From positions 1 to 64,000 of the forward strand of contig CAIOLC010000174.1 of assembly GCA_903859055.1 (NCBI GenBank): DNA of 64,000 bases. Reading direction: 5' to 3'. The notes beneath the pieces are model-generated. The model worked only from the letters and a program-made list of their open reading frames with translations, was not told the DNA's origin and did no database searches. This DNA comes from an uncultured Chlorobiaceae bacterium (GTDB taxonomy: Bacteria; Bacteroidota; Chlorobiia; Chlorobiales; Chlorobiaceae). A program made the position numbers and the translations under genes. Shown here piece by piece: positions 16,570 through 27,276 of this stretch (its first letter is position 1; each line of letters starts with the position of its first letter).

Positions 16570-16716
16570 GAAGGTAAATTGAAAAAATATGCATGACTTC
16601 TCATCAACAGACGCGACCTTCAGGCAAGATACAAGTTATAGGGAAAATTCCTGTAAATTGGCTATGTTTTGTTCAATATTACTGAACGACGGAACGAAAA
16701 ATAACAACAGAAAACA

Positions 16717-25862: not shown

Positions 25863-26893
25863 TTAGTGATGAGCAACGGCGGTATCATGTTCATCATGGC
25901 CGCCTTCATGTGCCGTAGCCAACCCGATAAAGAGCGACGTAAGCATCGTAAAGATAAAGGCCTGAAGGAAAGCAACAAAAATTTCAAGCAAGTAGATAAA
26001 TGTTGCAAAAGGAACTGAAACCACTGCTGCGGCAACATAACTCTTTATAATAAAACTGATAAAGATCAAGCTCAGAATGACAATGTGACCAGCGGCCATA
26101 TTTGCAAAAAGACGAACCGTCAGAGCAAATGGCTTGGTAAAAAGTCCAATGATCTCAATAGGAACCATGATAATCCAGAGGGCCCAGTGGGTTCCGACAG
26201 TAAGGTGCTTGAGAAAACCAACAACTCCATGCGCTCTTACCGAGGCTATCTGGATAACAAAAAAGGAAAAGACCGACAAAGTCAGAGTAACATTGATATC
26301 ACCAGTGGCGGTAGAGCCATAAGGTATGAGTCCAAAAAGATTACAGAAAAGGATAAACATAAAAACCGTCAGCAGAAAGGGGGTATGCTTCTCGAATCCA
26401 TGTCCAATATTTGCCTTTGCCACATCAAGACGTATAAACTCAACGAGAGCCTCCATGGTATTTGCCATACCCGAAGGTGCCTGCCGGACACCCATAGCCT
26501 TGTATTTACTCCCAACTATCGAAAAGATCAGCACAAGAGCGACTGCCACAATCCAGATCATCACAACACGCTTGGTTATCGAGATATCCAGTCCTCCCAA
26601 AAGAGGCACCGACGCAGGTATTGACATCCTGGGAAGCTCAACAGCCCCAAACGGCTCAAAAGCAAACTCGTTACTGTCCATAACGTGATGCATGATCACA
26701 GCACCAGGAGTCTCAGCTTCAGCCTCACCAGAATGTTCGCCCGGAACCGCCGGAGCTGTCGCCACGGACTGCTCACCAACCGCCTGCCGCTCTGTGGAGG
26801 CGACAGCAACACCGCTGAGATTGAACAGCAGAGGTACAAGAATTGCAAAAACCCTAAAAAAGCTTTTGGTTGTATGGGATTAGACCGTTTCAT
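25863..26893 (-). CDS. atpB: ATP synthase F0 subunit a; main ORF 25863..26765, but the likely ATG start at 26893 is in another frame (apparent -1 frameshift at about 26855-26861)
   Basis: Subunit a motifs ([53 protein letters not shown]). Sequence upstream of the GTG in frame encodes a signal peptide but has no ATG; ATGA overlap with the upstream gene supplies an ATG in the alternative frame. Confidence 0.85.
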
Positions 26894-27276
26894 GCAGTAT
26901 TCTTTTTCTGTTTATTTTTCTTTTGATATCCGAGAATTTCAACAATAACATAAATACAGTAAAAAGCAAAAAACGAGAAAACAAAATCATTAACGACTGC
27001 AAGTCCATTAAGAATGACAATCGCAATGACCGCCATCATAAGAAGCATTCGTATCGCAAGCCCACCGAACACAACTTTTGTGAACGATGAAGAATCTTTA
27101 TCAAGAGCATAATCAAAGAGCAAATATCCGGCGATTGTATTTGAAATCACCATCACCCATGCAAGAAAAAGTGCCCAAAAATCCACCCTCCCTGCCTCAA
27201 GCGGGAAATAGAGTACCCCCCATAAAACGATGGATAAGATACACAACTTAATAAAAAATTCAAATAGTGGCTTCAT
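26890..27276 (-). CDS. AtpI-like ATP synthase-associated membrane protein (subunit I)
   Basis: 128 aa four-TM protein between AtpZ-like and AtpB; stop overlaps the ATG at 26893. Confidence 0.7.
   Translation of the reverse strand: MKPLFEFFIKLCILSIVLWGVLYFPLEAGRVDFWALFLAWVMVISNTIAGYLLFDYALDKDSSSFTKVVFGGLAIRMLLMMAVIAIVILNGLAVVNDFVFSFFAFYCIYVIVEILGYQKKNKQKKNTA

Follow-up and report, generated by a model that had tools for sequence, protein, structure and literature searches.

Background

The closest described systems to the locus analysed here are the -1 programmed ribosomal frameshifts of the dnaX, IS1/IS3 and IS911 types, the singleton frameshift genes of prokaryotic surveys (GeneTack) and the ordinary atpB genes of the Chlorobiaceae. 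T TTT TTA is a strong slippery site for eukaryotic ribosomes, and the earlier note on this DNA had called it a classic -1 slippery heptamer, that of HIV-1 gag-pol. In E. coli the efficient U motifs have a final pyrimidine (H_HH.U_UU.Y), U_UU.U_UU.A is not among them, and U_UUA tetramers fall in a group that rises just 1.8-3.6-fold over background (PMC4066793). Transcriptional slippage or realignment has been reported on longer runs, of over seven A or over eight T (Tn, n>8), and the prior expectation for a homology-supported break seen in one genome only is a sequencing error (Antonov et al., PMC3711429).

Here we examine a window of 64,000 nucleotides (positions 1 to 64,000 of contig CAIOLC010000174.1, assembly GCA_903859055.1, an uncultured Chlorobiaceae bacterium) in which the start of atpB, the gene for subunit a of the ATP synthase, is out of frame with the remainder of the gene. 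The locus resembles the programmed frameshifts in having a correctly phased X XXY YYZ heptamer where the frames meet, but differs from them in that the heptamer is not conserved, no clear stimulators were found around it and the motif is weak in E. coli. With the singleton genes it has in common the occurrence in one genome, a homology-supported break and a homopolymer, and we found no difference from them. With the atpB genes of other Chlorobiaceae it shares the PF00119 domain, the order atpI-like/atpB/atpE/atpF/atpH, the coupled ATG and the signal peptide core; the window copy differs in being one base shorter around codons 11-13, which puts its start out of frame.

Structure of the atpB locus

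The gene lies on the minus strand, and its match to the ATP-synt_A profile (PF00119), with 205.8 bits against a curated cut-off of 33.9, identifies the product as subunit a of the F1Fo ATP synthase. It is followed directly by atpE, atpF and atpH (matches to PF00137, PF00430 and PF00213) and is the only atpB in the whole assembly, a 306-contig draft. Upstream on the same strand is an ORF of 128 aa (26890-27276), presumably a membrane protein, which we call AtpI-like from its position and hydrophobicity only. A Pfam search gave no match for this ORF, yet its end and its coupling to atpB are conserved across the genus.

The layout described in the earlier note was confirmed. Read on the minus strand, the AtpI-like ORF ends in a stop that shares bases with the ATG at 26893 (ATGA), and this ATG opens a frame of only 65 aa (26893-26696), whose final TGA overlaps a GTG at 26699, just before an ATG at 26693, both in the atpB frame. 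The atpB frame itself is open only downstream of a TAA, and the first usual start codon in it (ATG, GTG or TTG) is the GTG at 26765, the start of the ORF in the track; 38 residues are encoded between the TAA and this codon. The predicted 300-aa ORF that begins there (25863-26765) would have no signal peptide, and it is preceded by an SD-like GGTGAG. The two frames meet across GC-TTTTTT-AGGG, with the six T at 26861-26856, and the heptamer TTTTTTA occupies 26861-26855, phased as GC[T TTT TTA]GGG, at the junction where the note had joined the frames. Upstream of the junction are codons 1-11 from the coupled ATG (26862-26893), whose frame is later lost. Downstream, in the -1 frame (25863-26860), is the remainder of atpB with the signal-peptide core, an Ala/Pro/Glu-rich linker and the ATP-synt_A domain (E=9.8e-61), the last lying entirely 3' of both GTG 26765 and ATG 26693.

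Comparison with relatives

Alignment of atpB starts from related Chlorobiaceae had been proposed in the earlier note as a check, and we collected these regions from genus- and family-level relatives. All 44 distinct start regions with the coupled ATG (MKR/MKP-type) continue into the remainder of atpB without a change of frame, and the break is seen solely in the window. A second recovery pass yielded 47 distinct intact atpB genes. The Chlorobaculum-type genes (L037-L042) begin at a different, uncoupled ATG, and their frame is also open. The nearest relative (L003, from genome G022), with whose contig C2 the window is syntenic along its full length, has 83% DNA identity over the atpB stretch. 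Its start reads MKRSNLIQPKALFRVFAIMVPLL in one frame, so that relative to it the window lacks a single base at the T tract, and in L043 an in-frame GCTTTTTTTAAA stands at the same site.

Both window frames are needed to recover the N-terminus of the relatives, MKRSN-IQPKA being encoded upstream of the junction and FRVFAI-VPLL downstream. In L003 the two parts follow each other in a single frame that opens from the same start with MKRSNLIQPKA, as they do in other relatives, and this joint encoding is no coincidence. The signal peptide that the note had read upstream of GTG 26765 matches this single-frame N-terminus of L003, and a signal peptide is retained in all relatives. A scan of viral contigs returned no further copy of the atpB start, and among the papers covered by a literature search none joined Chlorobium, atpB and frameshift. 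In two order-level relatives the atpB matches (G044:C24:18984-19649 and G046:C88:37590-38261) are listed with one internal stop codon each, which may mark an early C-terminal end or a break.

The divergence of the coding sequence after the junction bears on the age of the break. Over the 20 codons of the signal-peptide block 3' of it, 21.7% of sites are different from L003, compared with 14.1% in the rest of the gene; in pairs of intact genes at a similar distance, divergence of this block spans about 2-52%. Both the hydrophobic core and the AVA-S cleavage motif are retained, with no sign of decay. Because the block is within the range of intact pairs and keeps its core and cleavage motif, the break probably either arose recently or does not exist in the living cell, a conclusion drawn from a divergence test of low power.

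Origin of the frame break

We consider it most likely, with a probability of roughly two in three, that the frame break arose in sequencing or assembly, or reflects a minority variant adopted in the consensus, and that the gene in the cell itself is unbroken. The organism would then have an ordinary Chlorobiaceae atpB, starting at the ATG coupled to the atpI-like gene and encoding subunit a as a precursor that carries a signal peptide at its N-terminus; one base would have been dropped from the T tract at 26861-26856 in the draft consensus, whether by error or through a minority variant, and the living cell would require no recoding. This reading is favoured because the window is the sole out-of-frame case against 44 in-frame relatives and the 47 intact genes of the second pass, because a persistent loss-of-function frameshift is unlikely in the sole gene for F0 subunit a, which is a single-copy core gene, and because the signal peptide shows no decay and the assembly is a draft of 306 contigs. 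Of the explanations put forward in the earlier note, an error or mutation is borne out, one base being missing by comparison with the genus relatives examined, all of which are unbroken, whereas slippage gained no support.

Two observations count against an artefact. The first is that the assembly is not generally frameshift-ridden. We ran a census in which approximately 288 kb of coding sequence was aligned by stretches to the nearest relative, and it gave 22 candidate indels with conserved flanks in this assembly and 20 in the relative (reverse test). Among the strongest candidates that were read, clear breaks in this assembly were confined to atpB and a PIN-domain-like accessory gene (L258), and the 124 A/T runs of at least 7 in 185 kb of coding sequence showed no excess of breaks. 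So few other clear breaks indicate that the assembly is not generally indel-ridden by comparison with the relative, and an error at atpB is not proven. The second is that a tract as short as T6/T7 is not where short-read data typically fail.

That the sole atpB has truly lost one base, and that subunit a is made either by internal initiation, and hence without its signal peptide, or by frameshifting on T TTT TTA, is to our mind decidedly less probable, even if it deserves to be taken seriously. Such a loss would mean that an essential stator subunit depends on recoding or has lost its signal peptide. Our best reading ranks the consensus artefact first and a recent deletion bypassed by internal initiation second. 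Initiation could occur at GTG 26765, or by reinitiation at GTG 26699 or ATG 26693, and the resulting subunit a would have no signal peptide, as in E. coli. The hybrid energies with the anti-SD (-9.7 kcal/mol at GTG 26765 and -8.0 at ATG 26693), the zero-frame TGA overlapping GTG 26699 and the position of the ATP-synt_A domain wholly 3' of GTG 26765 and ATG 26693 are all consistent with such a bypass, and the small number of other clear breaks also speaks for a genuine deletion. SD-like matches are nevertheless common by chance, GTG 26765 is absent from L003, and the retention of the signal peptide by all relatives suggests that it is important, so that we regard this bypass as rather improbable.

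The deletion might instead be tolerated if the frame were restored by a few per cent of ribosomes, through a -1 slip on T TTT TTA, or of RNA polymerases, through slippage on the T6 tract, which would be an adventitious rescue and not programming. The phase of the heptamer is right for such a slip, other bacteria are known to rescue indels through frameshifting or slippage (PMC5009743, PMC4256274), and slippage at dnaX has been proposed for Chlorobium relatives (PMC3711429). In this assembly, however, dnaX is in a single open frame across the matched region. The atpB motif has the final A that efficient E. coli U motifs lack (PMC4066793), and its six T are fewer than the runs on which transcriptional realignment has been reported (PMC3711429). 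Folding 3' of the heptamer gave no consistent signal (z=-2.0 for 61 nt, -0.76 for 93 nt and +0.75 for 121 nt), and a compact hairpin starts about 23 nt after it. We saw no purine-rich SD-like element upstream of the heptamer and found no clear stimulator, either conserved or at the usual spacing, around it, and an Rfam search returned no RNA element. Subunit a is moreover needed in quantity, and a rescue of this kind seems to us a poor prospect.

A programmed and selected -1 frameshift regulating F0 subunit a, which has the heptamer and its phase in its favour and nothing else, is nearly excluded by non-conservation (0 of the 44 relatives). Moreover, GCT TTT TTT AGG automatically becomes GCT TTT TTA GGG when one T is lost, so that the phase is no independent evidence, and T TTT TTA in slip phase is common in ordinary genes here, with 5 occurrences in the 185 kb of coding sequence counted for this assembly and 13 in the 339 kb counted for the relative, or about one per 26-37 kb. 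An in-phase slippery heptamer can accordingly be a by-product of the loss of one base in a T tract, and the test for such heptamers is their conservation across relatives.

Most of the other strong census candidates that were read proved not to be breaks in this assembly. The one at L277 falls in the intergenic spacer separating two ribosomal protein genes, that at L172 is intact in this assembly, and the window's own hit at 16572 is upstream of an ATG and resembles an over-extended start. The break at L282 belongs to the relative and not to this assembly: the PIN-like gene there (L282:2668, G000:C169) appears unbroken in the assembly that holds the window, and its frame is broken in G022 (G022:C1:184752). 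In the PIN-domain-like accessory gene of L258 (L258:9084, G000:C52) the single-base indel against the near relative is outside homopolymers, and the relative's copy is open.
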